Positions 4,263 through 24,815 of a DNA stretch of 64,000 nt are shown here, one piece after another; the stretch's first letter is position 1, and the number at the start of each line of letters is the position of its first letter. Position numbers and translations under genes: made by a program. A model generated the notes under the pieces. The model searched no databases. It was given only the letters and a program-made list of their open reading frames with translations, and was not told the DNA's origin. Source of the DNA: Chromera velia (taxonomy: Eukaryota; Sar; Chromeraceae); assembly GCA_018398765.1 (NCBI GenBank), contig JAHBMJ010005734.1, forward strand, positions 64,855 through 128,854. The letters run 5' to 3'.

Positions 4263-7200
4263 AAATACAGTCAGCTGGATTGTTTCCTTTCACGCGGAGG
4301 ATGAACAAGAGGGCACGGAGAAGTGCAGGAGGAGATAGAGGTAGCCAGGGAAGTGGCTGCTCTTTCTGGCTGACTTCACTGGGAAAGAAGTCTTTTTCTT
4401 GTATTTTCTAATATGTGAGACTGGGCGTTTTCGTGCCTTTCGTTTCTTTTTGTTTTTCCTTGTCTTTGTTTTTTGGTCAACTGTTCACCGAAGAGCAAAA
4501 AAGTGAGGAAAGACGAACAGAGAGTGAGAGATAAAATGCGCCCTGAGACTTTGCCTTGTGGCGGAGTCTGTTTTCCTTCTTCGTCTGCCGTCTCCTCAGT
4601 CATCTGCTCGGTTTGAAGGGGATTGTTGTGGAAAGCGTCTCTCTTGAGATGTCTTCTTCTTTATCTCCCTTTTCCATCTGGGCTTCCTTTCATGCTCATG
4701 CGCATGTGTGAGGGGGCATCCCTCTGTCTCCCTGAAAGTCCGGACGCCTGCAAGCAAGCAAGTCTGTCTCTGCATAGACAGTGGACGGTTGGATGGACAG
4801 ACAGACAGACAGACAGACGGGCCCTCAGGTGCTCCTTGTTGCTTCGAATTTTGTTTTGTCCTTCTTTCCTTCTCTCCGGTGAGGGGGTGTTCGGTTCGGT
4901 TGAGGGTTGAGTGGGTTGAGGGAGGGACCGCTTTGTTTGAATGCATCATCTCTCCTTCTTTCCTTTACCATTCCCTTGATTCCTGTCTGAACACCACTGA
5001 GAAACCAAAGAGACAAAATTCGATGCTCAAGGGGCAGCTCCTTTCTTGCTTCCTTCCTTCTTTCCTTCTCCTTCCACCTGAGCAGTGGAGTGGCGCTTAC
5101 GCCCGTTCGTGTGTGCATGTGAGAGAGACGAATTTGCGAGGACAGAAAGGGAAGGGCAATACCCGACCTGCACTGTCCCTTCGCTTGTTCGTCTCTAGAT
5201 CGCTGACTGGATGAAGGTCTCGGTCGGTGGTCGTCTTCTTCTTCTTCTGCTACTGCTGCTGCTTCTCCTGCGGGTGCAACTGCCCCCCCCCATCTAAGGT
5301 CTGTCCGCCCTTTCCCCTTCCGTCCGAACAAGTGAGACGGTTTCCGTCCTGCGCCTTTTCCTTGAGCAGCTAGGTTGTACCTCTTATTGATGGTGCAGAC
5401 GCTACGACCAAACGGTTGGGGTCCCTGGGGGTGTTGTGCTCCAAACGGAACCTCCCTCCAGGTTGCCTGGCTGCGTTCCTCTGACTGAGCAACTGAGTGG
5501 CCGCCTTTTTGGCTCAGGTGTCTGAGACTGACTGGTGCCCGGTTGCGTTTCCGTTCTTTTTCCTTCATTCCTCTCCCCGTGCCTCTTTCTTGCATGCGTG
5601 TGGCCGTCTGTCTCCAACTTCCTTTCCTGCCTCTTCGTGAGCGCTCAGGGAGGGAGGGAGGGAGGCAGGGGGGTGCACTCGTGTAGCGAGGGGCTTTTCC
5701 GTCTCTTTTGATTGCATGTGCGAGTGAGGAGGCCTCCCTTTTCTCCCTCCTGCTCTCGGGGAAGGGAAGAAGTGGGTGGGGCCTCTCTCTCCCTCTCTGA
5801 CGTGAGACTCTGTCGGTTCCTCCTCGTTTCCTCTCCCTTTTGCGGGGACATGAAAGAAGCGCGGAAGGGCAGAGAGAGTCTCTGGGGGGTTGTCATCTAG
5901 TCAATCAATCAGTCAGTCAGTCAGTGAAGCCGACAGACCGCGTCCCCCTCTTCGTTCCAGACAACAAACAAGTGTGATGGCAGCCGAAGCCAGCCGAGGA
6001 GAGAGGGGAGGAATCATTTTTTGCATACTTCTCGATTCCTTCGTCTTTTCTTCGATGGTTCTTCGCCCCTTGAGCCTGTTGAAATAGCGACAAGAGAGAA
6101 TGGGCAGGCTCCACCTGTCTCTTTCCGGCTTGTGTTGCTTGTCAGCAAGCGTTTTTCCGCCCGTGTTATATCGTTGAACACAGTCTTTTCTCTCCTGTTT
6201 TGTTGTCTCGGCTTTCCTTCCTTTCTTTCCTTTTTGGCCTTTGTATACCTTGTGAAGGTCTGGCTGTCTGAGAGGGTGGTAGGAGAATTCAGAGATGAGA
6301 GGGAGAGGAGGGCGCCGTCCAAAATTTCGTCTCTTCTTTGGCCTTCCTGTCCGTCATTTCGTCATTTCATACTCCCCCATCCAGAAGTTCACAAAGACTC
6401 CCTCGCTCTTTCGCCTTCTCTCTCTTCCTGCCCGGACCTCCCGCCACCGTTGATACACGCACGGACAGACAGAAAGTCACAGACAGAGAGGGAGCGGTAC
6501 ACACAGGTCGTGAAAGGAAAAGACCACTCCAACGGCTGTCCATACCGGACGTTGTCAGGATGATGATGTCCCGTATGACAGCGCATAAAACGCCTCGGTA
6601 TTTTATGCTTGTCCTGTTCGCATACCTTTGAGCGACCGGCGATCAATCCCTTTGAGCGGTGCTCACTGGGATTGTCGCTTTCGCGTGACCTGATCTTTTT
6701 TCTTGTTCTTGACATCTTTTCACTTCCACTTCGGTCGTTGTCTGATCTGTTTTCTTTCTTGTCTGTGTGTGTGTGGGAGTGGCCGTGGTGGTGCACCCGG
6801 TTCCGCTGCTGTCCTGTCCGTCAACCGACGGACGGACGGAGGCGCATGGATGGAATGCGGGAAGACAGTACAGCGGCCTCAACCGATCGACCGTCAGATT
6901 GGTGAGATGATGCAGAGAGAGGGACAGCCATGCAGAATTTCTTTTCCCTTTTTTGTCAATGTGAGAGAGACCCTCTTTTCTTCGCTGTCCGGCGACCCCT
7001 TCCCCTCAACTTTCCTTCTCGTCTCTCTGACTTTCCCCTCTGTTCTTCCACCAAACTTAACTGTGTTGTCGGCATGCGTCTCTTCACCCTTTCCCCTGTT
7101 TCTCCTTTCCCCTCCTGGATCCTTTTCCGCATCTTTTCCGATCAGGGGCGCATGCAGGTGGGTGGGTGGGTCTTTGGGGGGGTGCGTGTCTGTCTGGAGT

Positions 7201-9324
7201 GAGGGAGCGGGGCTGTCCGTTTTGACTCCAGGTAAGACGGGGTGGGGTGGGGTGGGGTGATGATCAGACGGACCATGTTCGTCTGTCTGTCTGTCATTCC
7301 TCTGAGTCCTCTCCCTTCTTTCTTTCTGGCTGTCTCAAAGAAGGAAGAACAGGCAGCTCTGAGCCCTCTTTCTTTCGATTAGCCCGCCCCCTTTCTCTCT
7401 CTTTGTATGTGTAAGCGTGTGTGTGTGTGCACTTTCTTCATTTGGTCATGTGAGAGCAGCAGAAAGTGTGCGTGGCGGCTGGCAGGAGACAGGGCGGCCT
7501 CGTTTAGTCTCGTCTCGTCTCTCTGCCTCACTCGCTTGACCTCCCCCTTTCTGGGTGGGGTCAGTGCGAGTGCCTGTATGCTGCGTTGCTGGTGCTGCTG
7601 CGGGTGGGGGGGGTGCTCTCTGGTTCTCCGACAGATCTGTCTGCTCTCCTTAATTTCCCTTTCCTTTCATGTTCCTTCTTTCCTCTTCACTCTCGCGGAG
7701 GGGTTCTGGGAACGGAACGGCAAGGGAGAAGGCTGGGAGTAGTAAGATGAGTCGTTTCCTCTTTCACCCTCATCGGAAAGCAGCAGAAAAAGCAGGCAGG
7801 CACGCAGAGAAGAAGAATGCATCATCGACGTGTGGGAGGGGGCGTGTCGAGTCATCGCCTCCGTAGGAAAAGGCTGAGGCGTGCGTAGATCTTCGTGAGC
7901 TCTGTGCCACTTCAATTTTTTCTTGCTCAAAGACATGAAAAAGAAAAAAAAAAAAAGAAAGAGAGAGTGCGGGTTGTTGTGTTCAGGAAGCAAGGAAGAG
8001 TAGCAATCTGTCTTTGTATACCCACCTATCCGTCTCTGTCTCTGCATGTCATGTGAGAGTGGCCTTCCGTGTCGACAGTTCTCGTTTCTTCGCTTCCGTC
8101 GGTCCTCTGATGGAAGGAAGGAAGGAATGACGTCGCACTCTGGCCTCGGCCCTTTGCGAACAGCATCGCATGCGACTCTTCCCTTCTCTCTCTGGAGTCG
8201 CAGAGGAGCCTTGCGCTTTGGGTAGTCTTCGCTGTCCGTGACTGGTTTCACTGAACTGGGCTCGTCTCTCTCTGTCTTTGACCGGTGCGGCACGTCTGCG
8301 CAGGTGGATGCTTTCAGTAAGGCGTTCTGGGTTCGTCCCGGTAGTCCGACTGTCTGTCTCTGTTTGTGCGTGCCGAGGGGGGAGCTCTGGTTGATTGATT
8401 GGTTGGTTGGTTGATTGACTGAGAGAAAGGAGGAAGAAGGGACTTCTTTCTTCTTTCTTCTCTTCTCCACATTCCTTGTCTTGTGGGAGGGGTGAGAGAC
8501 GATCGTCCGGGTCTTCTGGACGGTTGTCTGCTCGCCCTTTCTTCTTCCCCCTCTTCCGTTTTTCCTGAGAGCCTGCATGTGTTGAGTTTACTCGCAGGCG
8601 TCGTCCCTCTGTCTGTTTCCCTCCACCCCATTCCGTTTCCTTCAATCCTTCCCTCTTTTACCATTCCTCATTTCAGGCATGCAGAGAAAAAGAAAGAGAG
8701 ACGAGGTTCTCTCAGAAGGAGTGGATGAAGGGAAGGAAGGAAGGATCTCTCATCAATCAATCAATTCATTCTCCTACCGAAGGAAGAGGCGTCCACCCGA
8801 CTTCATGAAGACTGCGCTGGGGGAGAGGGGGGAGGAGTTTTTTTTTATGTCTGACTGATTGACTGACTGACTCATTGCACATCTTCGGGGTTTCTTTGCG
8901 ACTGGAGCCTCACAGAATGTCCGAAAGAGAAAGTGCGTTCTTTCTTGTGCGAACAATCAGAGAGAGGCAACTTGAGCATGTCGGTTGGTGTCCGTATGTC
9001 ACAACCGCTCCTCCCTCCATCTTTTCAAGTTGGAGTGATGGGAGATGGGGGGTGCATGCGAATGACTGAGTGCAATTGTCTTTACCTACCTTCGTTCTGC
9101 CGCATCATCGCTCACTGCCTTAGATTAGAAAAAAGGTCGACGGCATTGAGACGGTGTTAGCGGATCTTGCCTTCCTTTTCTCCTCTCCCCTCCTGTTACT
9201 CCAGGAGGTGGGGGTCTCAATCCGCCTTCGTTTCTTGTTTTGATTCTTCGTTCGCAGTCTCTAGGAACATTCAATTCGCTCTCTTGCTTTCTTCCTTTCT
9301 TTCTTTTTTCTTACACGGTTTCTT
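4263..9324. other. No gene seen; repeat-rich low-complexity DNA
   Basis: Alternating CT-rich and GA-rich tracts with many copies of a junction of the form TTTCATGTGTGAGAG. Short simple repeats include (GACA)n near 4798-4818 and GATT/GGTT runs near 8391-8418. A copy of the GAGCATGTCGGTTGG motif occurs near 8976. Open frames up to about 300 codons exist on the minus strand, but their composition mirrors the tract asymmetry and no domain or consistent splicing was found. Confidence 0.55.
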
Positions 9325-9560
9325 TGTGAGAGTGGCGGCTGACGCGAACAGAGCAGTTCCTCTCCTCACTCTCGACTCCCTCTGCCTTGTTTCTCTTAGG
9401 TCTCCTGGGGAGAACAGAGGAGGATGTTGGGGGGGGGAGGGACAGCTTTCATACTGCGTCAGAGCTGCCATAGGGACTTCTGTTGCGTCGACGTGCCGTC
9501 TGTCTGACCGATTGATTGAGGGAAGAGGGGAGGCACGGAGGCTGACTGAGGGTCCCTTCG
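9325..9560 (+). repeat. Dispersed repeat module R1, copy 1
   Basis: Begins near GTGAGAGTGGCGGCTGACG, continues through a CT-rich stretch, and ends near a segment reading CGTGCCGTCTGTCTGACCG then GATTGAGGGAAGAGG. The same order of segments recurs near 11510-11735 and 16395-16630. No coding potential is recognised. Confidence 0.8.
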
Positions 9561-9699
9561 TAGAAAAGAGAAGAGGAAGAGGAGACGGCAGAGGAATTCA
9601 GCAGGAAGAGGAGCTGCGTGAGACGCGAGTGAAGTCGCTGGAGCATTCTTTGCAAAGAAAAATAAGCAGAATCCTGCGATCGTTACATTGCATCTACTC

Positions 9700-9800
9700 G
9701 TCTTTTTTGCTTTCATCGGTGTGAGAGCAGCGGCCCCGTCCGGCGGCTACTGTTGTGGAGGAGGCGTTTGTCCTTTGGTTTCTCCCATCCTTCGCTTCTT
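9700..9800 (+). repeat. Dispersed repeat module R2, copy 1
   Basis: The segment around GGTGTGAGAGCAGCGGCCCC, followed by a GGCGGCTACTG stretch, is repeated near 11880-11990. R2 follows R1 at a similar distance in both places, so R1 and R2 were probably duplicated together. Confidence 0.75.
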
Positions 9801-9961
9801 CCTTTTCCCTTTGTCTCGTTACCCGAAGTGGACTGAAAGCGAGGGAGAGAAAGAGCGACAAAAAGAAACATTGGGGGCGTACCTTCTCTCTCTGCATTCC
9901 CTCTGAGGGAATCACTAGAAGACTACCACCACCACTACCATTACTGCCCCTTCAGTCTTGC

Positions 9962-10216
9962 AGGTTGATCGAAAGAAGAGGAAAAGAACACTCAACCCCC
10001 AGACAAAAGTTGCGTGAAGAACGACTGAATGCGAAAAGATCCCTGGACTTCTACCAGAGCAAGAAGGGACTCATGAGTGGAAGATCACTTTTTCAAAGCG
10101 TTGTGCAGAATGACCAGAAGACCAAAAGCACTATTTACTACCCTTTTCTCAGTCGTGATGCATGGTCCCAAGACCTACTACTCAGAGCTCACAAAAACCT
10201 CAATACGCCACTGTGA
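9962..10216 (+). CDS. Candidate terminal exon of an unidentified gene
   Basis: A frame opens directly after a TCTTGCAG acceptor and runs 84 codons to TGA at 10214-10216. The peptide is mixed and charged rather than low complexity; it has a basic helical start (RQKLREERLNAKR), then a Ser/Gln-rich part, and ends in LNTPL. No family was recognised and no upstream exons could be joined. It lies in repeat-rich DNA, and a hairpin-family motif starts right after the stop. It could be a fragment of a dead gene. Confidence 0.3.
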   Translation, partial: RLIERRGKEHSTPRQKLREERLNAKRSLDFYQSKKGLMSGRSLFQSVVQNDQKTKSTIYYPFLSRDAWSQDLLLRAHKNLNTPL

Positions 10217-10687
10217 GAATGACCGAATGCAAATCTCCGGAGCTGTTGGTGAAAGTCCAAAGAGCAGTACAGGACTCATAGGAAGTGCAGCCGATGGCAG
10301 GCCTCCTGCCTGCAGCGTTTCGTCCCTCCATTCTTCCATCCTGCTTGTAAGAGAGAGAGTTCGCAGAAAAGAAAGGCAAGAGAGAGACTCTCCGTCTTCT
10401 TTCTTATCTTCATTTCCCCTCGTCGGCTGCATTGTCGCACTTGCAGTGTGTGCAGTGAGTCAGTGAGGGGTTACGATGGGCACATCTTCTTCAACTGCTC
10501 ACTCCTTTCCGTTCCTTTCCTCATTCCTCCTTCCCTTCCAAAATTCTGATGTGGTGCCTCTCGACGATGGGGCGTCCTTCCCTCGATGTTGTTTGTTCTC
10601 TTTCTCCTCTCCTCCCCATTTTTCCTTCTGGGACCCGGACGGACAGAAAGGATGGGGCATTGGGGGGAGGGTAGACTGAGACGACTG

Positions 10688-10800
10688 GAGCATGTCGGTT
10701 GGAGGTAATCTGCAGTGAATAAGCTGGGATTGCATGACCCAATGCGAATCACGAATGCCATCTAGAGCTGTCGGTGCTTCAAACCCCCCCGCAGGGTATC
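10688..10800 (+). repeat. Hairpin-family element (GAGCATGTCGGTTGG type)
   Basis: Left motif GAGCATGTCGGTTGG near 10689 and right motif TGACCCAATGCGAATC near 10735, followed by a shared tail (GAATGCCATCTAGAGCTG, then GTATCCCAA). The tail also occurs near 12680-12715, 14715-14770 and 15930-15990. Confidence 0.7.
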
Positions 10801-11509
10801 CCAAATGGGATACTCCGTCATTTTCCCCGTAGGAGACCAGAATTCTGGCGCTATACACCGGCAGCATGAAAGAAGAAGTTGTCGCGGTGTGAGCAGGTGA
10901 CAGAGCAGCAGGGTGGTCGCAGATGAGGGCGGTCGATTTCTCTTCGGCCTGCTCTTAGTGCGTCCTCTGTCCGTGTGTCTATTGCTTGTTTTCATCTTTT
11001 CCTCCGTCTGAGCTCTTTTGAAGAGTGCCTTGAGTGCGAGCAAAGAGGGAAGGGAGATCGGGCAAGAGAGCGGCGTTCCTTTCCACCCATATGCAAGGCG
11101 TCGCGCTTTTCGCTGTGGGCGGTAGTTGGTTGCCCTCCCTTTCCACCTCTTTCCTTTCCCCTCTTCTCTCTTCTTTCCCTTCCCTTTCCGCCCTTTCCCT
11201 TTCCTTCCCTTGCTGTGTTGCTTCTTCCTCGCAGTGTCGGGCAGGGAAAAACAAAGTGAGCATTCGGTCGGTGTCTCTGGGAGTGGTTTCTTCATGACAG
11301 ACAGTCGTCTGGAAAAATGACTTGCTTGCACCAGATCAATACCTGCCTTTCGTGCATGAAGAGGAAGGCCTTGCAAACAACTCGCCGGCCTTCTCTGAAT
11401 TCTGTCATCCGATCGAGTATACATCCATGCAGTTTTTGTAGGTGTGTCTCTGGAGACTCTCTATCCTTGTTTGTTACCTTTGTTCCCATTCTTTTTGTTT
11501 CTGACATGG

Positions 11510-11735
11510 TTTCTGTGTGAGGGTGGCGGCTGACGCAAACGGAGCAGCTCCTGATTCCTCGACTTTCTCTGCCGTGTTTCTCTCCGGGGAAGCAGAGGAG
11601 GATGTCAAGGGGAGGAGGGACAGCTTTTTTGTTGCGTCGGGGGTGCCATGGGGACTTCTGTTGCGTCGACGTGCCGACTCTCTGACCGATTGACTGAGGG
11701 AAGAGGCGAGACATGGAGGCTGATTGAGGGCCCCC
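11510..11735 (+). repeat. Dispersed repeat module R1, copy 2
   Basis: Matches 9325-9560 and 16395-16630 in order and wording: GTGAGGGTGGCGGCTGACG at the left, a CT-rich centre, then CGTGCCGACTCTCTGACCG and GACTGAGGGAAGAGG at the right. R2 copy 2 follows near 11880-11990. Confidence 0.8.
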
Positions 11736-12504
11736 TTGTAGAAAAGAGAAGAGAAGAGAAGCAGAAGGAAAATCGAGCAGAAAGATGGTCTGTCTGGATC
11801 GGGAACAAGTTGCTGGTCTTGCCTCATCATTCTTCCTGAGAGATCTTTGGGTGAATCCAGCAATCGTCCGTCTGATTCACTCTTCTTTCTTTCTTGCTTT
11901 CATGGGTGTGAGAGCAGCGGCCCCTTCCGGTGGCTGCTGCTGCAGAGGTGGCTTTTGTCGTTTGGTTTCTGTTCCTCTCCTTTGTCTTTTCCTCTTTCTG
12001 TAAGGGGAAGAGTTGATCAGTGGGGAGGAAGAGTGGACATGCGGGACAGACAAGCTTTCTTTGCGAACAGAAAACGCACACGCATGCATGCACACACACG
12101 CATGGAGAGGGGAGGAAGGAGTGTAGATGGGTCACCTTCATGCTTCTTGCTCTTTTTCTCTCCTCCATTTTCATGTGTCATGTGAGAGAGGGCAGGGAAG
12201 GGAAGGCAGGGCTGGAATTTTCTTCTGGCCTTTTTTTCGTTCTCTCCTCTTAGCTCAGTTCTGAGGGCTCTCTGTGTGTCACCCCGACAGAGAGAGCGTC
12301 TCTCTCTGCCCACACGTCCGTTCTCCGTTGTCTCTCCACACTTTCGTTCCGTCCCTCCTTCCTGCTCCATAGAATCGTAGATGGTGCTGGGAGTGTGGGA
12401 GGTTTCCTTACGGTCGTTCTCCTTTTGGGAAGTGGAAGGAAGTGCTGACTTGTGCTTTCTGACTCGTAGGCCCGTCAGCTACGTTGCTTCGCGGGAGACG
12501 GCCT

Positions 12505-12600
12505 GAGCATTTCGGTTGGCGTCTGTGAGTCTGTCTGCTTTGCTCTGTTCACACGGAACGAAAATGTCGTCTTGCAGAATGACCGTGTGCGAATCTCTGG
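12505..12600 (+). repeat. Hairpin-family element
   Basis: Left end GAGCATTTCGGTTGGCGTC near 12505; right end GAATGACCGTGTGCGAATCTC near 12575-12598. The ends are imperfect inverted repeats (GCATTTCGGT against ACCGxxTGC). The interior is similar to the copy near 14530 but lacks its duplicated CACGTG palindrome. Confidence 0.75.
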
Positions 12601-13120
12601 AGCATGTTGGTGATGTCCGGGCGCCGTGTCGGTCTTTGACAGCGTCTGATGCCGCATGCGAATTTCGATTCCGTCTGGAGCCGTCGGTGGTTCCACTGCC
12701 TAGTATCCCAAGTGCATGGGGGTACATCCTTCGAAGACCTATGGGGAGATCGACCACCTGGACTTGGCAGTCGTTGGAAAAATCGACAGCGTCAAAAAGA
12801 AGAAGAAAAACAGAGAGTGAAGGTTCTTTCTCCGTTCATCCATTCGCCAATCCATTCTTCCGTGTTGCAGTGAGTTAAAAGAAAACGATTTGCAGGGAGA
12901 CAGACCCTTTCTTCCTTCCGTCCTTCTTATGCCCGAGATTTCCCTCTTTCTCTCCTGAACCTCTCTTTCCCTTTCTGGACGCGGACAGAGGGGATGGGGN
13001 GGGGGGGGGGGGGGGGAAGGATAAGATGGAGTCACTTAATTCGGGCATGTTGATTCGATCCGCCGTGTCCACAGCAGTGCATTAGGGCGCAATGCCAAGC
13101 GGACTTGCTTGCTTGTGGGA

Positions 13121-13165
13121 TGACCGAATGCGATCGCATCTCTGGAGCATGTCGGTTGGTGTCTG
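13121..13165 (+). repeat. Hairpin-family motif pair
   Basis: GATGACCGAATGCGATCGCATCTC followed directly by GGAGCATGTCGGTTGG. ATGCGATCGCAT is itself a 12-bp perfect palindrome. The same arrangement recurs near 13800-13840. Confidence 0.7.
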
Positions 13166-13730
13166 TCCGGGCATGCGTCATCGGTTGATGCTCCCTCCCC
13201 AGCCAGACAGAATGGCCATGTGCGAATGAATCTTTGGATCTGTCTGTCTGTGGCTAATGGTTTCAGTTTCCCCCCCTTCCCTGCCGCCGCATGCAAGCCG
13301 CGTACTAAATGGAAACGGGCCATTTCCGCAGACCTTCACTCCTTCCAGTAGCCGTGCGCATGAGAAAGAGGTTAACTTCCTTCAATCAGCTCGCTGCAAC
13401 GCATCATCATTCATTCCCGTTGTCTTCCTTCCTTCGTCCGTTCGTCCATCCGTTCTTACACGTTGCAGTGATGCAAAAGAAACAGGTTTGCATGGGGACG
13501 TCTTCTTCCTTTCTTCCTGCCGCTCAACTGATCGCCTCTTGGTTCCTTCCTTCCCTTCGTCCCTTCCCGTCCTTCCTATCCCTCCAGCATCAGTCTCTGA
13601 TGCCTGGTGATGGGGGGTGTCCTCGAGATTTCCCTCTTTCTCTTCTCTCCCTCTCTTTCCCTTTCTGGACGCGGACAGAAGGGATGGGGGGATGGGTGGG
13701 GGGTGGGGTGGGGGGATAGATTGAGATCAC

Positions 13731-13845
13731 TGGAGCATGTCGGTCGGTGTCCGCAGCAGTGCCTTAGGGCACATTGCCAAGCGGGCTTGCTTGCTGTGGG
13801 ATGACCGAATGCGATCGCATCTCTGGAGCATGTCGGTTAGGAGAG
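13731..13845 (+). repeat. Hairpin-family element
   Basis: GGAGCATGTCGGTCGG near 13733, right motif ATGACCGAATGCGATCGCAT near 13800, then another left motif. A close copy lies at about 15160-15265. Confidence 0.75.
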
Positions 13846-14528
13846 CGTCGCAAGGTTCGCGCACGAACGTCCTCGACACATGTCAGAGGGTGTTCCACAC
13901 ACATCCTCTCGGACGTTCCACCTTACCCGTTTCGCTCACCTGACTGTCTCTGCGAATGAATCTTTAGATCTGTCTGTCTGTCGGCATGTGGCTAATGGTT
14001 TCAGTTCCCACTCCTTCCCTGCCGCCGCATGCAAGCCGCTTACTAAATGGAAAGAAAGCCATATCCCACAGACAGCTTCTTCACTCCATCCAGTAGCCGT
14101 GCGCATGAGAAAGGGGTCAACTTCCTTCAATCAACTCGCTGCATTGCATCATCAACATTCATTCCCGTTGTCTTCCTTCCTTCGTCCGTTCGTCAATCCG
14201 TTCTTTCATGTTGCAGTGATGCAAAAGAAACAGGTTTGCATGGGGACGTCTTCTTCCTTCCCTCCTGTCGCTGGCTCAACTGATCGATCATGGTTCCTTC
14301 CTTCCCTTCGTCCCTTCCCGTCCTTCCTATCCCTCCAGCAGCAGGCTCTGGGGTTTTACGCTTTCCTTCGTCCTTTCCTTCCTTCCTTCCTTCCTTCCTT
14401 CCTTCGTTCCTGCTCCATAGAATCGTAGATGGTGCTGGAAGTGTGGGAGGCATCCGTACGGTCGTTCGCCTTTTGAGACGCAGAATGAACTGCTGACTTG
14501 TCTTTTCTAACTGCGTTGCTTCTCCGGT

Positions 14529-14650
14529 TGAGCACTTCGGTTGGCGTCTGTGAGTCTGTCTGCTTTGCTCTATCCACGTGGATCAATAGGTGCTCTATCC
14601 ACGTGGATCAATACGTCCTCTTGCAGAATGACCGTGTGCGAATCTCTTGA
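14529..14650 (+). repeat. Hairpin-family element with duplicated CACGTG palindrome
   Basis: Left end GAGCACTTCGGTTGGCGTC, right end GAATGACCGTGTGCGAATCTC. Inside, TATCCACGTGGATCAATA occurs twice, at 14571-14588 and 14596-14613. Each copy contains the 12-bp perfect palindrome ATCCACGTGGAT. Confidence 0.8.
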
Positions 14651-15159
14651 GCATGTTGGTGGTGTTCGGGCCTGTAGGGTGGTGTGGCACCGACAGCGTC
14701 TGAGCATGCCGCATGCGAATTTCGATTCCGTATAGAGCCGTCGGTGGTTCCACTGCCTAGTATCCCAACTGCATGGGGGTACATCGAAGACCTATGGGGA
14801 AATCGACCACCTGGACTTGGTAGTCGTTGGAAAAATCGACAGCGTCAAAAAGAAGAATAATGAAAAACAGAGAGTGAAGGTTTCTTCTCCGTTCGTCCAT
14901 TCGCCAATCCATTCTTCCATGTTGCAGTGAGGTAAAAGAAAACGATTTGCAGGGAGACCCTTTCTTCCGTTCGCTCGACTGACTCTCCCTTTTTTCGTTC
15001 CTTCCGTCCTTCCTGTCCCTCCAGCATCTTTCTCTGATGCCTGGTGATGGGGGGTGTCCTCGAGATTTCCCTCTTTCTCTTCTCTCCCTCTCTTTCCCTT
15101 TCTGGACGCGGACAGAGGGGATGGGGGGAGGGTGGGGACAGGTGCAGTCACTTCATTCA

Positions 15160-15265
15160 CTGGAGCATGTCGGTCGGTGTCCACAGCAGTGCCTTAGGGC
15201 GCATTGCCAAGCGGGCTGGCTTGTGGGATGACCGAATGCGAATCTCTGGAGCATGTCGGTTAGGT
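15160..15265 (+). repeat. Hairpin-family element
   Basis: Close copy of 13731-13845: GGAGCATGTCGGTCGG, then the GCAGTGCCTTAGGGCGCATT interior, then ATGACCGAATGCGAATCTC. Confidence 0.75.
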
Positions 15266-15854
15266 GTGCGTTGAAGGGTTCGCGCACGAACGTTTCTCGG
15301 TCCACCTTACACGTTTCGCTCACCTGACCGTCTGCGAATGAATCTTTGGATGTGTCTGTCTGTCTGTCGGCATGTGGCTAATGGTTTGAGTTTCCACTCC
15401 TTCCCTGCCGCCGCATGCAAGCCGTGTACTAAATGGAAAAAAAGCCATAAAACACAGACAGCTTCTTCACTCCACCCAGTAGCCGTGCGCGTGAGAAAGA
15501 GGTTAACTTCCTTCAATCAGCTCCCTGCAACGCATCATCATTCATTCCCGTTGTCTTCCTTCCTTCGTCCGTTCGTCCATCCGTTCTTACACGTTGCAGT
15601 GATGCAAAAGAAACAGGTTTGCATGGGGACGTCTCCTTCCTTCCTTCCTGTCGCTAGCTCGACTGATCACCTCTTGGTTCCTTCCTTCCCTTCGTCCCTT
15701 CCCGTCCTTCCTATCCCTTCAGCATCAGGCTCTGGTGCCTGTTGATGGGGGGTGTTCCCGAGATTTCTCTCTTTCTCTTCTCCCCATCGCTTCCCTTCTG
15801 GGACCTGGACGGACAGAAGGGGGAGGGGGGGGTGGGGGGATAGATCGAGAACAC

Positions 15855-15990
15855 TGGAGCATGTCGGTTGGTGTCCGAAGCAAGTTGTCGTGCGTATTCC
15901 GGCAACGTGTTCTGTGGGATGACTGAATGCGAATCTCGAATGCCGTCTAGAGCTGTCGGTGGTTGCCGCCTCCTGGAGGGTATCCAATCA
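15855..15990 (+). repeat. Hairpin-family element with tail
   Basis: GGAGCATGTCGGTTGGTGTC near 15857, right motif ATGACTGAATGCGAATCTC near 15918, then the tail GAATGCCGTCTAGAGCTGTC and GTATCC, as at 10688-10800. Confidence 0.7.
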
Positions 15991-16394
15991 CCGCAACGGC
16001 AGCAGCATCTGCCCACCGACCACCGGAAGTCGGTAGTCCTTCGGGACATTTCCGGGCCACCGGCAGCGCAAACAAAAGAAAAAAAGGAAGGCCAAGGTGC
16101 GCGACATAGTGGCCGACTTGTGACGTTAGGGGGAAATTGATCGGTCATCGTTCTGTTTGTTGTCTGTTCGGTTTTCTCCTTTCGCACTTCCTTGCGTCTT
16201 CCCCCCCCCCACTGCAAAAAAGAGAGAGAGAACTGTGGTATTTGATGTTTTTCTCGGTGGGGGTGTTTGTTGGACTTCCTCGCTGTTCTTTTCATCCTTC
16301 GATCGATCGGTCGGGTGGTCATTCATGTCTCTTCTGGCTTTTGTTTCTATTTATGTATGTGACTGGAAATCCTGTGTGGATTTTCTCTTTCTCG

Positions 16395-16630
16395 TTTCTG
16401 TGTGAGAGTGGCGGATGACACAAACGGAGCAGTTCCTCATTCCTCGACTTTCTCTGTCGTGTTTCTCTCTGGCCTTCTGGAGGAAGCAGAGGAGGATGTC
16501 AAGGGGGAGAGGGACAGCTTTTTTGTTGCGTCGGGGGTGCCATGGGGACTTCTGTTGCGTCGACGTGCCGACTGTCTGACCGATTGACTGAGGGAAGAGG
16601 CGAGGCATGGAGGCTGATTGAGGGTCCCTT
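16395..16630 (+). repeat. Dispersed repeat module R1, copy 3
   Basis: Third copy of the module at 9325-9560 and 11510-11735. It starts near GTGTGAGAGTGGCGGATGAC and ends near GACTGAGGGAAGAGG. It is closer to copy 2 than to copy 1. R2 does not follow here. Confidence 0.8.
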
Positions 16631-17269
16631 TGTAGAGAGGAGAGGAGGGAAAGGGAGGGGGAGAAGACGACTCAGGACGGACAGTCAAAAGATTTGGGTG
16701 TGACGGGAGAAAGCAGGGAGTTTGCCAACTGCCTCTTTTCCTTCCTAACCATTCTTCTCTCTAGCTGTCCACATTCTGCTGTCGTTCCATTTTTTCATTG
16801 TGACCTGTGAGAAAGCGACGCAGAACGCCGCGAATGATTAAGCCCGCCAGCGTGCAGCTAAACCGCGGTGTGTGCGCGCGCTTCATTCTTCTCCTTGCTC
16901 CTTTTTCCGAAGTGGAAAGCCTGGAGAAGTGAGAAGGACACCGAGATGCATTCATTCATTCATTCACTCACTCACTGCCATGACTGAAGCGGCAATTGCA
17001 ACTACCTGTTTCTCTCCTTAAGAGATTCACCAACTCCACGCCTTCTTTCAGGAGCAGGGCGGCGGTACTTATGTGCGCTTGCGGAGGGGGCAAAGGCAAC
17101 CCGCAGCGCGATGCGGTGTGCAGGAAGCAAAGGCATTTTGTTCCACTCTCGAGTGCGCCGTCCTGCGTAGATCTTTCCGATAAAAAAACAAAAACATCAA
17201 TCGCCTTCCGTACTTTTTTTTTCTTTTGATCCTTTCTCCTCTTCTGGGTGAGATGTGGTTGTTGTTTGC

Positions 17270-18650
17270 TCAGTATTTTTTTGTGCGTGTGGGAGCAGCA
17301 ATGATACTGCGTAGCCTTGGTGACGCATGCACCCAGTCGGTCTGTCGGTTTCTGTCCCCTCTCAATTCTTTCGATTCTTTCCGTACACAGACGAAGGACA
17401 TGCCACTGACAGATTGGGAGCTGACTCGGTCGCTTGTCGGCTGTGCAGTAGTTGCTGTTGCAGGGAGGGTCTGTGTGATGTCGTCTCTTGCCTTCTCTCC
17501 CTTTTCCTATCTTTTCTCTTTCTGCTGTGTCCTTTGAAAAGGAAAAGGAAGAGGGCCGGGTGGGGGAGTGACTTCGCGTCGGGCTCTTTTGGCATTATCA
17601 TGTGATACAGAGACAGAGAAAGAGAGAGATTAATCAAAAAAAGCAAGCTCAAGAAAACGAAGAAGGTGAAAGGAACTGTCCCACCTGTCGTCCTGCCTTT
17701 GGACGCCTTTGGAAGGAAGCAGGAGACGCCTGGAGCATGTTGGCTGGTTGGTGGTTCGACTTGGACTGCTGTTCGCTGAATGCGATTCCCTACTGGAGCT
17801 TTTGGTAGTGACCGACCGGCCCGAGCTTGGGTTTCTTTTCTTCCTGGTTAGGAAACCGAAGACGGAGAAAGACGGAGAAGTGAGATACTCAGGTCTCTCC
17901 TACCTCGCCAGTCTGTCTCTCCTAATCTTGTGGAGCGACGTCAGCCGCCTGGTCGCACCAAGAGCGTTTTCTTTTCGTCTCGTTCCACTGAAACGCAGAT
18001 CAATCAGATGGACTGGTGCCGTCAGGTCGTTCCTTCTTCCTTCAAGGAGAGGTCGATCGCTGGTCTGCGTCTTCTTCCTTTGCCGTTTGTTAAGTTTTCT
18101 TCTGCCTTGGCTTCTGCTTTCTGTTGTGTTTGTATACGTGTACATGTCAGCATGTGAGAGCAGCAATAACGCCGCGTCGCAGCAGTGACACATGCCCCCA
18201 GTCGGTCTGTGGGTGTCTGTCCCCTCTTAATTGCTTTGGTTCCTTCAATCGACACACAATGAGGGGGGAGAGGCCCTTGACTGATTGGGACCTGACTGAG
18301 TCGCTGCTTGGCTGTGCGGCGGTTGCTGTTGCAGTGAGGGTCTGTACAGTTTCGCGTTTGCTTGCTCTCCTCCTCTTTCTGGGGGGGAAGGGGAAAGTGG
18401 ATGCGCATTGAGCCCTTTGTGCAGTGTCATCCGATAGACAGACAGACAGACAGACAGAAAGACAAACAGACAGACAGAGACACCCAAGAGAGCGAAGCAA
18501 GTCGAAGGAAACGTCCCACTTCTCGTCCCGCTGTTGCAAGCAGGGGACGCCTGGAGCATGTTGGCTGGTCGCGCGGGCCTCCGCTGCCGGCCGAATGCGA
18601 TTCCCTCATTGAGCTTTTGGTAGCGACCGCTTCCTCAGAATTGTCCGTCT
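17270..18650 (+). repeat. Pair of ~0.85-kb related segments
   Basis: About 17280-17830 and 18140-18640 share, in order: GGGAGCAGCAAT/GAGAGCAGCAAT, CCCAGTCGGTCTGT, GTTGCTGTTGCAG.GAGGGTCTGT, and GCCTGGAGCATGTTGGCTGGT followed by GAATGCGATTCCCT. The second copy has a long GACA run (18431-18480). Confidence 0.75.
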
Positions 18651-19395
18651 GGTTTTGTACCAGGCCTGACAAATCTTAGGGTCAGAAGGACAAAAAAGTC
18701 TGCACGTCCTGCTACTTTTCAGTCTCTCTTTCGGACGAGGCGAAACGCCTCAAGCGCGCCAAGAGCGTTTTCTTCGCGTTTCGTCAATTCGCCTGCAGAT
18801 CGATCGGGGGGTTTCGTTGATTGATTGCCCCAGGGCTTCTATCAGCTTCTCGGGGTTGGAGAATGCAGACTGGACTCATGATCCCCTCCGTTTGTTTGGG
18901 GTCTGTGTGTTTTGCTTCTGCTTTGCTGCTTCCTCTGGGTTGTGCAACAGAGAAGGAAGAGATTTATTTCCTCACGAGGCCTTTGGAGAATTGTGAATAA
19001 CTTTGCATCTCCGTTGACCTCAGTTGCTAGTCTCCTCTCCACCCGTCGTCTGCTATTCCCTCCTTTTTCTTCTTCCGCTTTCCTCTCCTTTCATGTTTCA
19101 TGTGAGAGGGTGGGTGAGTGAGAGAAGGTTGGAGTCTCCTCCGACATCCTTTCTGCCTCGTCTGTTCCCTCCACCGGGGAAGAATTGTGTCTCTTTATTC
19201 CCTGGAGAACTCTCGATCGACGTTTCATCCCCTCAACGTTCGTCCATGCCGTGCTTCCTTCGCTCCTCCATTTATTCATTCGTCCAGCCAGCCTGCGGCG
19301 TCTGAAAAAAGGGAGAGGTGTAAGCACTGGTTGTTCTTCCTTTCCTCTTCGAATTTGGGGTGGAGTGGCATCCCATGCATTGGCTTGTCAGTCTG

Positions 19396-19505
19396 AGAGC
19401 ATTTCGGTTGGCGTCTGCAGGGGGCCCCGCAGGAGGCTTCTTTGATACGCTAAAATGTCGGTTGACAACCTGCAGGATGACCGGGTGCAAGTCTCTGGAG
19501 CAGTT
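19396..19505 (+). repeat. Hairpin-family element
   Basis: GAGCATTTCGGTTGGCGTC near 19398, followed at once by TGCAGG; the right side is CCTGCAGGATGACCGGGTGC near 19469. The TGCAGG/CCTGCA arms pair inside the outer inverted ends. Confidence 0.75.
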
Positions 19506-20739
19506 GGAAAAGAATCAATCCCCCCCTGATGCGCTCTCGGCACTAGATCAGTCTCAGGCGACGCACGATAAGCAGGGGAGATCTTCTGAGTAAAAAAACT
19601 CGATCGAAGCCTTTCCTCACCTTCCTTCCGTCCCGTTTTCCTCTTTGGGTTTCGGAAAGGAATCGTGCTGATGGGACGCCCCTTCTCTTTCTCCTCCCCT
19701 GTCTTTACTATCCCTCCTTCCCCTTTTCTTCCTTCCTGCATTCCTGCAAGGACAAAAATATACAAGCATGGTGCGATGCAGCAGGCGTGATGAAAGTGTT
19801 GAGATAGTGGATCTCTTGTCGAGAGGTGAAGAGAAATACTGACTTGCACTGAAGGAAGTCTCTTCTCCCTCCCGTTTCTTCCAGTCTGTTTATCTTCTCT
19901 CCTCTTCTCTTCTTCTTTCATTTCTCATGTGAGGGTGGGTGACTGAGAAAAGTCTCTCTTCATTTCCCTCAGCTTGGCGGGGTCTCCGTTTTTTCATCGC
20001 GTGACTTGTTGTTCCCTTTTCGTTCCCCCTTCCATTCCATTCCCTCCTCTCTCTTTTGGGAGGTGGAGGGAGACTCCTGGAGCATGCCGGTTGATGTCCT
20101 TGGCTTACGCACCGAGAGTACGTCGTGCCTCACGCGGGAATGACCGCTTGCGAATCTCTTCTCCTTTCATGCCGCATGTGAGAGAGGGTGGATGAGTGAG
20201 GGAAAGTTTGTTGGAGTCTCTTCGGATCTTCTTTCTCTCCTTCTCTTTCCTCTGCTGGGTGGGGTGGGGTCTCTTCCTTGCATGCCATCTGGCCCTGGAG
20301 GTTCTTGATTGCTTTTTTTCTTGACTTGTTCCTTGACTTAGTCGGTCTGCATGCAGTGGTTTGGTGTGAAGTGAAATGAAAGGTTCCGAAAACACTTTTT
20401 TTTCTTCTTGACTTCTCTCGAATCATTCGTTAGAAAATAGAAACAGAAAGGTCCTTCACGATTGTCGGGGGTGTGGGTCGGGGTTTTGGGGACTTTGCCG
20501 GACCGGACTGGTGGGATGACGAGAACATTCCTGGAGCTGTTTGGTTGAGAAGATCTGCCACCAGCTTGCACAAGAGAAGGGGGGGTTCCTTCTGTTCTTC
20601 CAATCAAGTTCCCCTCCCGAAAGAAAGAAAGAAGTGCTGCGTGGGGTCTCTGAAAGCAGACTTTCCTGTGGGCACTCTTTTTTCTTTCTGTCTTTTCCCG
20701 ATCAATTTTCCGTCTCCTCACTTTCTGCCAAGAAGAAGC

Positions 20740-21670
20740 CAATTGCGTTTCCCCGATGACTCATGACATTTTGGGTGTCGCGAAACATTCTACCTGAGCA
20801 TTTCGGTTGGTGTCGCCAATGACCGAACTGCCGAAGATCCGGTCTGGAATCTTGAGCAGGGGAGATCTGAGGGGAATGGCCGAATGCGAATCTCTGGGGC
20901 TGTTGGTTGAAGTGGTCGTGAATGCAGGGCAGGATCGATCGAGAGACGGATTTATGCATGCAGTCCGACTTCAAGTTGCTTGCAAGAGGACGTTTGAGGA
21001 TGGTGCGGCCGAGGTCGTCACCCATCTGCAACAGCGTATTTTCTCCTTCCGTTTGCCATGTGAGAGAGTTTGGAAAGGGAAACCGACAAGAGTCTTCCTT
21101 CTGGCCTTTCTCTTCCTCCGTTGAATGGGGCCTCTGAAAGCAAGGAGGGGTTCTTTCTCATTCGCACCTTTTCGTTAATTCGTCCATCTTTCATTCTTTC
21201 CTTCCGTTCCCTTTCCGTTCCTCTCCTTCCTTCGTTTTTGTGAGGGAAAAAATCATCCGAACCATCCGATTGCGTTGCCCGATGACTCATGACATTGTTT
21301 TGGGTGTCGGGAAACGTCCTGTGTGAGCATTTCGGTTGGTGTCGCCAATGACCGAACTGCCGAAGATCCGGCATGGAATCTTGAGCAGGGGAGATCTGAG
21401 GGGAATGACCGAATGCGAATCTCTGGAGCTGTTGGCTGAAATCGTCCTGCGTGCAGCATCAAGAGACGGATTTATGCATGCACTGCCAGTCCGTCTTACT
21501 TGCAAAAAGACCTTTGAGGATGGTGAGTGCGGCGGCCGAGGTCGTCACCCATCCTCCAACAGCGTGTTTTCTCCTTCCGTTTGCCATGTGAGAGAGTTTG
21601 GAAAGGGAAACAGACAAGTGTCTTCCTTCTGGCCCTTTTCTTCCTCCGTTGAATGGGGCCTTTGCAAGCA
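20740..21670 (+). repeat. ~530-bp tandem duplication with hairpin-family elements
   Basis: The segment from GATGACTCATGACATT (near 20753) to the CTTCCTCCGTTGAATGGGG region (near 21126) is repeated from about 21280 to 21657. Both copies contain GAGCATTTCGGTTGGTGTC, GACCGAACTGCCGAAGATCC and CCGAATGCGAATCTCTGG, and both end with CCATGTGAGAGAGTTTGG and GA-rich DNA. Copies differ by scattered substitutions and small indels. Confidence 0.85.
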
Positions 21671-22017
21671 AGGAGAGGTTCTTATTAGCACCCTCTTTTT
21701 TCGCTCCAGTCTTTCTCTAAACTCATATTCTTCCCCCTTAATTCTTTCCTCCCTTTTCGTTTTCTTCCTTCGTTTGTGCGAGAAAAGAAGACATTCGAAC
21801 AAGGCTGCAGGAGTACGGAAGGAAGCTTTGTGTCACTGCGGTTCCTCGATCCCACACAAACAAAAACAACACACTTCGTTGCCGTCTCTCCATTCCTTTC
21901 CCTCCCCTTCCTCCCTTCCCTCCCGCCCAGAAAGAAAAGATTCCGATCGGCTTGTGATGTGGCAGGAGGGCTGAAAGTGTTTCCATGGTGGTTCTGTGCC
22001 GGTCCGGCGAGACGACC

Positions 22018-22111
22018 GAGCATTTCGGTTGGCGTCCGTAACCAACCGGTCCTGGTGGATCGACATTACCAGCAGGACCGGGGTGGTTTGGAATGGCCGA
22101 ATGCGAATCTC
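22018..22111 (+). repeat. Hairpin-family element, strong fold-back copy
   Basis: Outer ends GAGCATTTCGGTTGGCGTC and GGCCGAATGCGAATCTC are imperfect inverted repeats. Inside them a second stem pairs 22040-22054 with 22073-22088 (about 15 bp with a one-base bulge; GGTCCTG against CAGGACC in the core). The loop is about 18 bases. Confidence 0.85.
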
Positions 22112-22671
22112 TGAAGCTGTCTGGTTGAAGTTCGCAAAGCAGTAAAGGACTGAAGAGGTCACGGCCGTTTGGCTCTCATCCCACCAGCAGCGTCTGCTTT
22201 TCTTCCACTCTTCCGCCATCCAAGAGGAGACTCACGAATGAGAAAAGTGCGATCTCACTCTGCCCTTCTGTCCCCTCATTTCCCTCTTTTGAGTGGGGTC
22301 TCTGAAGCAGCTAGAGTGGTATTGTGCACCCCTTTCTTCTCTTTCAATTTGTTTTCTCTTGACTGATCTTCAACTTCCCTTTCATTCTTTCCTTCCCTCA
22401 TTGCCTTACACCAACAGAAAAAACAAAGATAAAAAGAAGCCGATTGCGTTGCCTGATGATCGAGGCGGGAGGGAGTGCTGGAGGTTTCCACGGTCGTTCT
22501 TCCCGGGAGATGGACAGACAGACAGACAGAGGGAAAAAAGAAATACCGACTGACTGATTTGTACTAAAGGAATTGACTGACTTGTACTGAAAAGAAATAC
22601 TGACCTGTACTCAGATGTACTAACTGAGTTGTACTACCGTATGTTGACGATTTGTGTTCGGGAGACGGCCG

Positions 22672-22752
22672 GAGCATTTCGGTTGGCGCCTGCGAGATCA
22701 CTTACTCCTTTCGAGGAGTCAACAGCTGATCTCGCAGAATGACCGTGTGCGT
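22672..22752 (+). repeat. Hairpin-family element, nested perfect stems
   Basis: Outer GAGCATTTCGGTTGGCG and GAATGACCGTGTGCG. A perfect 11-bp stem pairs 22690-22700 (CTGCGAGATCA) with 22727-22737. A smaller stem ACTCC/GGAGT (22704-22708 with 22715-22719) lies within. Confidence 0.85.
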
Positions 22753-23136
22753 TGTCTCTTCACTTCTCTTCACTTCGGTCCTTCATTCTTCTTCGTCGTT
22801 CGTTTCCTTTCTTCGCCCTCGTTCTTTCCGTTTGCGTGCGCAGTCAGCTGTGCTAGGACAGACGTGCAAGAGACAGAACGAGTCTCGAGGAACCCAACGC
22901 TTCGTGCGGGTCGTCGCTTTTTTCCCATCTCTTTGCAGCCGAGTCTTCTTCTCCGTTGCCCCTTCTTTGAGCAGGGCGGCTGCAGGGGGCGGAAAGGCGT
23001 CCTCTATCCGTTGACAGCAGAGGGCGGAAAGGCGTCTTCTATCAGCTTGACCCTCCGGTGGCCTCTTGTCCTCACTTTGATTGGGCCTTTCGTTCCGCCT
23101 TCTTTTCCTTCCCAAATTTTCCCTCCGTGCAGTCAG

Positions 23137-23320
23137 ATCGATCCACTGTTCCCCCAATGCCGCAAAGAATGAAGTCTGGGATAGAGTTAACAGAAAATTC
23201 GCGGCGTCTAACGTGAAAGAGAAGGATGACCGTGCACACGTGGCGTTACTTGCCGCTGCTTTTCTCCTTTGCAAGGCTTGCCGGGATGTTGTCTTCAAAG
23301 TGTCCCCCTTTCCGTATTGA
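23137..23320 (+). CDS. Candidate terminal exon of an unidentified gene
   Basis: Follows a TCCGTGCAG acceptor after a long pyrimidine tract and runs about 61 codons to TGA at 23318-23320. The peptide is charged then hydrophobic (NEVWDRVNRKF, later ALLAAAFLLCKACRD), unlike the low-complexity frames around it. No upstream exon could be joined and no family is recognised. An overlapping minus-strand frame (23246-23488) also looks fairly coding-like, so strand is not certain. Confidence 0.3.
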
Positions 23321-23509
23321 TTGTTCATGTATGTCTGTCGTCATCAACACTTGCAAAGCAGTCGATCGCAAGTAAAGGGGTGTTTCCAATGCTACGTCCA
23401 GTGAAGCAAGTAGAGTGACGGCACCTCTCCTGCGCAGGATTACACAGGATGCTGCGGCATGAAAAAACCTGATACTCACCCACACCAACCGATCCCCTTC
23501 ACCTTTGAC

Positions 23510-24815
23510 ATCTTTTATGCAACGTCACAAAAATGTGTTGGTTATTCTTATTATAGATAGTGCAATGGATGTTGTGCACTGGCAAAATGAATTACCTAAA
23601 TTTATGCGTATATCATACGGTATATGTTTATAATTTATACATGTGTTTCGTTATCTAGATCGTTTTATACATGTCTTAACGTAGATCAAAAAGTAAATAG
23701 AAGTCAATCATAGCGATATAAAATATAAAATCTGATCAAATTCTAATGAGATATCGCCCTGCACTCCAGTTTGCATTTCATACTCCAAAATGAGATAGAA
23801 TGAAAATCATATTTCTATATTATAAGTGAATAGTGATAAGTGTTGGGATAAGTGATTTATTCATATCTTTAAGCCCTGTCACCGTTTTGTCTAGTAGAGC
23901 TAGGTCGCCTCATCAAACGGCAAGGATATTTATATACGAATTATAGCCTAACCTGTATGTTTTCAAGCCTGAGTTAACTTGCTTCTATATTGTTGCCTCC
24001 TCCTCATCATCATCATCATCATACTCCATCGCCATCGGCCTACTGGCATAATAGGCGCCTAGCGTTTGATAAGTCGCAACATGCAAGGCAGATTATTAAA
24101 TGATGGATCATCTAGGACCATCACTTCGCAACATTTAGTAACTATAGCTTAACAACTTTAGTCATAACTATATTTCTATTGTTAGGATAATTTAGTGTTA
24201 ACTAGGGTGTCAAGATTGTAACCTGATTATTATAGTTTTGTTAGCTTTTCATAGCTCTTCATAGCCTCTCATGAAAATATGTTTTACATACAACCGGTTT
24301 ACAGTGGTGTTGCAACGATTCTTAAGTATAGAAAAGGATATAACTTGAAGATATGATAGAATTCATTAATGTTCTGGGTGGCCCCGCGCTCAACTGTTGG
24401 GCCTTAACTTATATTGTCGAGCTGGAAACCGTTCAGACATTTACATACATTTATATGATACAAATGGAGCTAGAAATGTACATGGAGCGTTATAAACCCT
24501 AACCGGGCCTAACACGAATCGGTTATGTGATTCTGAGTTTGACGGGCGGTAACGGGGCGGAATTACCTAATAGAAAACCCACCGTATTAGAAGTGTTCCT
24601 TGAGATAACCATTGGATTATACTTTACACATAGTTTTGCACAGTGATACAAGTTATCATACAATTAAGACGAAGAGTGGGTGGATATGGCTAGGGATATG
24701 GTAACATTGGTAAGATAGACTTCCATAAAGAGTGCAGTACGCTAGGCAGTACGGTCACGCAATGACAAACCCAACTTTTTTTTTTTGTTAGTTATCAAAC
24801 CTGAACAGCAGTCTC
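23510..24815. other. AT-rich island 1
   Basis: A sharp change to AT-rich DNA with short motifs such as TTAACTAG and CATAG. Flanking simple repeats (CAT)n lie near 24003-24022. No ORF of more than 60 codons with ATG is seen. Two internal segments recur in other islands: GATAAGTGATTTATT with CTGTCACCGTTTT (23850-23895, again near 50250-50297), and ATAGGCGCCTAGCGTT with CAACATGCAAGGCAG (24050-24092, again near 36729-36765). Confidence 0.85.

Follow-up and report, generated by a model that had tools for sequence, protein, structure and literature searches.

The 64,000-nucleotide stretch of Chromera velia DNA analysed here (the window; positions 64855-128854 of contig C3806 in an assembly of 177.8 Mb and 4040 contigs) raises the question of why short hairpins with similar ends and very different interiors recur along one part of it. 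The first-pass annotation had described a family in which a left word and a right word enclose interiors that retain base pairing despite different letters, and had considered a fold-back element, a structured RNA or a site under pairing selection. We propose, with belief and doubt about evenly balanced, that the covarying hairpin array represents a structural module repeated in long noncoding transcripts, where it would act as a protein-binding platform. At the level of sequence, the analysis establishes a constant bulged stem, a near-invariant GGYG/AT loop, a sequence-free distal helix whose pairing is selected, and repetition in one orientation; the further step, in which the modules belong to long transcripts and serve there for binding, we would back only moderately.

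Both words are genuine and occur far above chance. With up to three mismatches, the left word matched the window at 20 places, all on the + strand and 19 of them within 8974-22672, compared with 3.1 ± 1.8 matches (maximum 9) in shuffled controls. The right word matched at 10 places, again all on the + strand, within 10220-22111, compared with 0.07 in shuffles. Between 8 and 24 kb, a looser scan (24-base word, up to eight substitutions) listed 14 places for the right word, among which the loosest are weak or insertion-shifted. These counts bear out a family with paired ends at many places in the window, and for some left words there is no clean partner. Often the right word continues into a shortened copy of the left word, with the letters TGGAGCTGTYGG or GAATCTCTGGAGCTGTYGG, which the first-pass annotation does not mention and which opens a second hairpin at 12600, 13826, 14649 and 15249.

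Folding and alignment of the copies revealed that each of them is one hairpin. The words, first described as imperfect inverted repeats, are the two strands of one constant outer stem of 10 bp with one bulged base (GCAY-bulge-YCGGTY / RACCGRRTGC). The 4x2 internal loop is near-invariant, with GGYG on its left side and AT on its right, and neither of the unpaired bases G28 and T122 varies among the 27 aligned rows. The inner helix begins with TC / GA and is followed by a tip that is very variable in length and sequence. The sequences of the inner helix and tip diverge freely between copies; stem lengths vary widely, and the core ranges from 52 to 139 nt among 35 copies. Two of the interior palindromes reported earlier were recovered as described, namely an 11-bp perfect stem (22690-22700 / 22727-22737) and a duplicated ATCCACGTGGAT (14572-14583 and 14597-14608). 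A third, given as a 15-bp stem at 22040-22088, is present, but only 9 bp of it are perfect (22046-22054 / 22073-22081), followed by interrupted pairing.

Of 35 extracted copies, 27 entered the alignment A1, the 27-row covariation tests and the covariance model R1. The other eight (wp13145, wp13826, wp14649, wp12600, wp15249, wp18554, L029m6307 and L032p5454) were omitted for irregular left or right words; the fold z-score test and the realignment test took all 35. The right-word anchors were picked by eye once the folds were known. Among the 27 copies, 89.5% of the 465 cells of the whole structure were paired, compared with 80.1 ± 1.1% after shuffling; 59 cells carried double changes, compared with 17.3 ± 5.1, and sliding one strand lowered the pairing to 34-43%. 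The letters of the inner helix are absent from the words used for finding these copies, whereas the outer stem includes them. The inner helix alone was 82.1% paired (64.9 ± 2.1% shuffled) with 42 double-change cells (12.9 ± 3.9), and the outer stem was 94.8% paired (91.2 ± 0.6%). When similar rows were removed to leave 21, 19 or 15, none of 5000 swaps reached the observed pairing of the inner helix, and the outer stem gave p ≤ 0.006. Realignment of all 35 copies gave 325 of 348 for the outer stem and 206 of 273 for the inner helix, the latter being 0.755 compared with a mean of 0.548 for swaps of the 3′ strand, which none of 3000 swaps reached. Two of three alignment settings agreed on this result, and the third gave 184 of 248 for the inner helix (0.742 compared with 0.568). 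The compensatory-change test suggested in the first-pass annotation yielded double changes far above shuffles, with compensatory changes in both helices, and the claim of retained pairing despite different interiors holds. In our judgement, covariation of such strength among the paralogues of one genome is uncommon.

These results bear directly on the idea that the copies reflect shared descent alone, that is, a decaying tandem duplication whose palindromes are all that survives of an ancient inverted repeat. Paralogous units are about 64-91% identical and an inverted segmental duplication is present, as this idea would expect. However, the double changes lie far above both shuffles and slides, the pairing remains far above swaps in the subset of 15 rows that are all less than 58% identical, and the elements are conserved where their flanks share little or nothing (see below). 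We regard shared descent alone as close to refuted.

The strand that folds was indicated by the non-canonical pairs. On the + strand, G.T pairs numbered 111 and A.C mismatches 12 over the 35 copies in two settings (the third gave 103 and 11). In the 27 rows, the outer stem had 46 of the former and 1 of the latter, with one constant T.G pair contributing 21 of the 46, and the inner helix had 31 and 5. Because the reverse complement would turn these pairs into mismatches, their large excess indicates that it is the + strand that folds, in single-stranded form and most simply as RNA. The forward cores had a mean fold z of -2.11, with 18 of 35 below -2, compared with -1.05 (10 of 35) for the reverse complements and -0.98 (10 of 60) for nearby background. 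Pairing on the + strand is thus almost certainly under selection, and folding of this strand as RNA is likely.

R1 was run on the window and on selected loci, so that the copy number is a lower bound. It gave 35 matches with E < 1e-4, of which 16 lie in the window, 18 in other loci (E ≤ 1.2e-5) and one more on contig C405 (E 2.5e-8). This set comprises the 27 training rows and eight matches outside the training set, and differs from the set of 35 extracted copies. Weaker matches were found on C405 (E 2.9e-4, clipped by the end of the locus), on contig C84 (5.7e-4) and in locus L029 (0.005). Letter patterns searched across the whole genome placed arrays on C3806 at 34-45 kb (minus strand) and 73.8-87.6 kb (plus strand, the window array), on C405 at 10.6-22.2 kb (plus strand, of which 16.0-20.7 kb is outside the stretch seen) and on C2965 at 9.7-12.1 kb (minus strand), together with one decayed copy on C84. 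Orientation is uniform inside each array on C3806, C405 and C2965; in the window, all 16 strong copies (E < 1e-10) are on the + strand.

The arrays differ in how much surrounding sequence they share. The two C3806 arrays have several diverged units in common besides the inverted duplication, as revealed by blastn. At E 1e-5, 10 kb of C405 gave no plus-strand match to the window, 10 kb of C2965 gave a single plus-strand match of 50 bp located at the right word, and C405 and C2965 matched each other in two stretches of 31 and 34 bp. The element nevertheless occurs on both C405 and C2965, its interiors differing but paired, within near-unalignable flanks, and is therefore conserved where the flanks are not. 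The first-pass annotation would have been refuted by copies without covariation that share only descent within larger duplicated blocks, and this is not what was found; such blocks do exist, but they do not explain the copies on C405 and C2965. Covariation, strand-specific G.T pairs and conservation across arrays support two of the readings offered at first, a structured RNA or a pairing-selected site.

A mobile fold-back element, or one similar to a short interspersed nuclear element, is not supported, because the model-confirmed copies are not dispersed in both orientations but lie in a few same-orientation arrays and on C84. In four pattern scans, 28 of 50, 15 of 35, 10 of 36 and 6 of 23 matches fell off C3806, C405, C2965 and C84 (reversed controls 12, 12, 13 and 2), which exceeds the control in the first and the last. 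Further decayed copies across the genome are possible, and R1, checked on 23 off-array contigs carrying a pattern match, found a copy on C84 alone. A viral or bacterial origin was rejected. The left word had two stray matches in viruses, neither with model support, and the right word had no viral match and six bacterial ones in a 257 Gb collection, which we estimate to be about chance level.

The sequence around the window array is strongly strand-biased. A T-rich, TGTGAG-rich one-strand zone (1..24000, + strand; AT skew -0.16 to -0.20) contains the array, and TGTGAG occurs there 38 times on the + strand and twice on the - strand, compared with 14 and 15 times in 24001-64000. The + strand of this zone is likely the transcribed strand. 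In three of the four arrays it is the T-rich strand that carries the modules, and C2965 is about balanced. Within the zone, TGTGAG often falls within CATGTGAGAG, and similar words precede modules on the C3806 minus strand and on C2965. We rejected CATGTGAGAG as a second array-specific motif, since the extended word, CATGTGAGAGNGGNNG, occurs genome-wide: it was found at 38 places compared with 7 for the reversed control, and 33 of the 38 are on contigs without known modules.

In the mechanism that we propose, transcription of the array would yield a single long noncoding transcript or a small number of them, in which each copy would form one module of folded RNA from the array's + strand. The outer stem and internal loop would provide an unchanging platform for protein binding, displayed repeatedly as a multivalent scaffold, a role that tandem stem-loops have in known long noncoding RNAs, and the distal helix may act as a spacer or fold-clamp whose letters are irrelevant. 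If the array is transcribed, it would be a repeated RNA platform, the constant loop of which should bind one protein while the free arm tolerates any letters that pair, and arrays of paralogues in one genome could then reveal new RNA families without related genomes. The assembly has 58 chlorophyll-binding matches, which indicates a photosynthetic host; for one light-harvesting complex (LHC) protein, the PDB yielded just a distant relative. With more hesitation, we suggest that the modules may represent a new class of long noncoding RNA, with many covarying modules per array forming a multivalent ribonucleoprotein scaffold in a photosynthetic eukaryote.

A long transcript could also carry the hairpins as processing sites or precursors, either of small RNAs or as intron structures, in which case the double-stranded stem alone would matter. 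Hairpins as long and strong as those of modules 15 and 16 (coordinates below) would suit this role, and the repeated TGTGAG of the T-rich zone contains GTGAG, which resembles a 5′ splice site. However, the letters of the outer stem and of the unpaired loop are near-constant across arrays, which pure double-strandedness does not need, and the lengths of the stems differ widely. No Rfam microRNA family reached its gathering score in the window or in 10 loci. We therefore consider processing sites unlikely.

The main rival to a module within long transcripts holds that each module is the body of its own small noncoding RNA gene in a tandem family, similar to the Class I RNAs of Dictyostelium, in which a constant ribonucleoprotein-binding stem would carry a variable arm. 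We consider this a real but clearly less probable explanation. In five paralogous pairs, the identities of the hairpin and of the 150 bp upstream were 0.97/0.57, 0.90/0.85, 0.88/0.76, 0.93/0.47 and 0.70/0.81, so that the hairpin was the more similar part in four pairs and the less similar in one. The drop just upstream is sharp in two of the five, the pair on C405 (0.47 compared with 0.93, the sharpest) and the window pair at 20.7/21.3 kb (0.57 compared with 0.97), whereas upstream similarity is still high (0.76-0.85) in the other three. Of 17 copies, homologous ones included, 7 have TTTT no more than 25 nt from the putative 3′ end, compared with a background of 15.5%, and the other 10 have none nearby. 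Twelve of the 15 gaps between modules in the window are 0.5-0.85 kb long (529 to 843 bp), as might be expected of a tandem gene family, and Class I RNAs likewise occur in clusters, their variable part being enclosed by a covarying stem (PMC7919456).

Promoter signals argue in the other direction. Among 31 flanks, four close paralogues having been dropped, no 7-mer was shared at a fixed upstream offset by more than three, except the element's own GGAGACG/GGGAGAC, and there is thus no sign of a promoter for each module. The B box of RNA polymerase III has the consensus GWTCRANNC. At the corresponding place, inspected by eye, five of the 35 copies have GCGT instead of GCRA, indicating that the box is not conserved. 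An origin from polymerase III genes with A and B boxes, as in vault RNA, was rejected because the B-box letters are not kept in every copy; most copies also have no T run nearby.

Several observations weigh against modules within long transcripts. The upstream drop in similarity and the TTTT near the putative 3′ end are each easier to reconcile with small RNA genes that stand alone. The fold z was not below -2 in 17 of the 35 cores. The closing helix P1 (GAGA/TCTC) is weak, with 56.8% paired compared with 53.5 ± 2.0%. A second domain, P3 (GCTGTYGG / CCRACAGC-GT), looks persuasive in individual copies, such as GCTGTCGGTGG / CCACCGGCAGC around 15.95-16.07 kb, but its permutation tests gave p values of 0.049 (27 copies), 0.068 (17 copies) and 0.23 (13 non-redundant copies), and a plain duplex test gave 14 of 33 compared with 9.2 shuffled and 8 reversed (34% across arrays). 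P1 and P3 are therefore only suggestive, and because P3 fails clean tests the full extent of the module is uncertain.

Searches for known families gave no match within their scope. With Rfam 15 at the gathering threshold, there were no matches in the window or in 71,382 bases from 10 loci. A permissive scan of L032, L036 and window 8500-23000 gave sub-threshold hits only, the best of which (E 0.011, 11967-12035) is outside the modules. A limited literature search found no description of such an element by title or abstract. As far as has been searched, the hairpins would thus be a structured RNA family without an Rfam match, so far from one genome.

All features of the window array lie on the + strand. 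Module 1 (8960..9102; R1 53.2 bits, E 5.9e-12), which has a diverged right word, module 4 (13131..13256; 52.7 bits, E 8.3e-12) and module 10 (18540..18630; 50.3 bits, E 3.5e-11) are outside the training set, and the remaining modules are training rows. These are module 2 (10674..10774; 67.3 bits), module 3 (12491..12619; 98 bits), module 5 (13719..13845; 89.7 bits), module 6 (14516..14668; 79.1 bits), which holds the duplicated ATCCACGTGGAT in its tip, module 7 (15149..15268; 79.4 bits), module 8 (15843..15959; 85.4 bits), module 9 (17719..17815; 59.4 bits), module 11 (19383..19517; 80.3 bits) and module 12 (20066..20180; 76.1 bits). Module 13 (20782..20916; 89.1 bits) has a close paralogue in module 14 (21311..21445; 87 bits), with 86% identity over 428 aligned positions. 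Module 15 (22005..22133; 76.3 bits, fold z -5.01) has a stem that extends towards the tip, and the inner stem of module 16 (22658..22779; 69.2 bits) is the perfect 11-bp one. A suggestive P3 of module 8, GCTGTCGG / CCGGCAGC, would close downstream at about 16060. Second hairpins, seen in the sequence, follow immediately on module 3 (12600..12667, opened by its trailing left-like word; fold z -1.23), module 5 (13826..13964; -4.36), module 6 (14649..14724; -3.83) and module 7 (15249..15346; -2.32). A remnant at 10201..10259 (14 bits, E 0.095) consists of a right word with one mismatch and then a left-like word, without a left word.

Other repeats were noticed in and around the array. Three related blocks inside it (9304-9582, 11509-11753 and 16394-16647; 75-90% identical) carry a GTGAG-GTGGCGG-like word and might represent another type of module. 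Just upstream, 1319-4260 holds a direct repeat with a spacing of about 1.35 kb and 90.8% identity over 1601 aligned positions, and 4363-8993 is a segmental inverted duplication with C3806:44.6-48.9 kb, about 90% identical over two main blocks, which leads into both arrays. About 58 bp at 8225-8283 match regular tandem arrays on C2219, C3248 and C1091 (period about 108 bp, many copies), mostly with 76-88% identity. Farther away, 43187-43448 is a tandem repeat of 7.7 copies of the 35-bp unit GGCCCACGGCCACGTGCTTTCAGTTATATTATATT, which includes the palindrome CACGTG, and at 56242-56377 a 68-bp unit is perfectly duplicated in tandem.

Seven open reading frames (ORFs) of at least 180 aa lie inside 8.9-22.8 kb, and the two of them searched against Pfam (13841-14428 and 21327-21974) gave no match. 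Elsewhere in the window, an ORF on the - strand (51046-52530) encodes a PfkB-family kinase (PF00294, E 2.7e-16). An eIF5-like ORF (PF01873 and W2) at L030:7440-8894 (C3806:52440-53894, minus strand) lies between the two divergent arrays; the minus-strand array of C3806 shares its strand and is situated downstream. Past the end of that array there is a retrotransposon gag-like ORF (PF03732; L028:3879-4997).

Among known systems, vault RNA and Y RNA are small tandem structured RNAs made by RNA polymerase III. The modules resemble them in this arrangement, and the left and right words are faintly like the A and B boxes; in contrast, the B-box letters are not in every copy, T runs occur in a minority and there is no Rfam match. 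The tandem stem-loop modules of the long noncoding RNAs roX and Xist (A-repeat) offer another parallel, with short structured modules along one strand and T-rich spacers between them, whereas the modules here diverge strongly; the sequence comparison made here was with Rfam only.

In anatomy alone, the modules also resemble the attC sites of integrons, sharing a constant stem, an extra-helical base, an unpaired spacer, a variable tip, use of one strand and arrangement in arrays. By analogy, the hairpins might act at the DNA level, as a folded single strand between repeated cassettes. A published account describes attC sites with extra-helical bases, an unpaired central spacer and variable terminal structures (PMC2727003), a strikingly parallel anatomy, and tandem units do lie between the modules. 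However, the genome is of eukaryotic size (178 Mb) and carries chlorophyll-binding genes, G.T pairs are common, and the intervening units are mutually related, with no gene cassette recognised in the two of seven long array ORFs put through Pfam. The core of the attC R box pair is AAC/GTT. At that place, the right strand of the modules mostly reads GACCG, GACTG or GGCCG, and no AAC/GTT pair was seen. No integrase turned up among 20 window and flank ORFs searched through Pfam, with no integrase-specific model run on the arrays. We consider a DNA-level site of this type very improbable.

The closest known form appears to be the Class I RNA of dictyostelids, by analogy. According to PMC7919456, Class I RNAs are expressed RNAs of 42-65 nt with a Dictyostelium upstream sequence element (DUSE) promoter about 60 nt upstream, and they occur as clustered copies with a covarying stem, a constant 11-nt motif beside it and a variable remainder. 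The modules would not belong to this class on length, their core being 52-139 nt, or on a shared upstream motif, none having appeared in the general 7-mer test, which included no DUSE-specific search. They also differ in their photosynthetic host and in that their distal part is itself a covarying helix. Both families nevertheless comprise many clustered copies in one genome, with a covarying stem that changes its letters, an adjoining constant motif and a variable rest.

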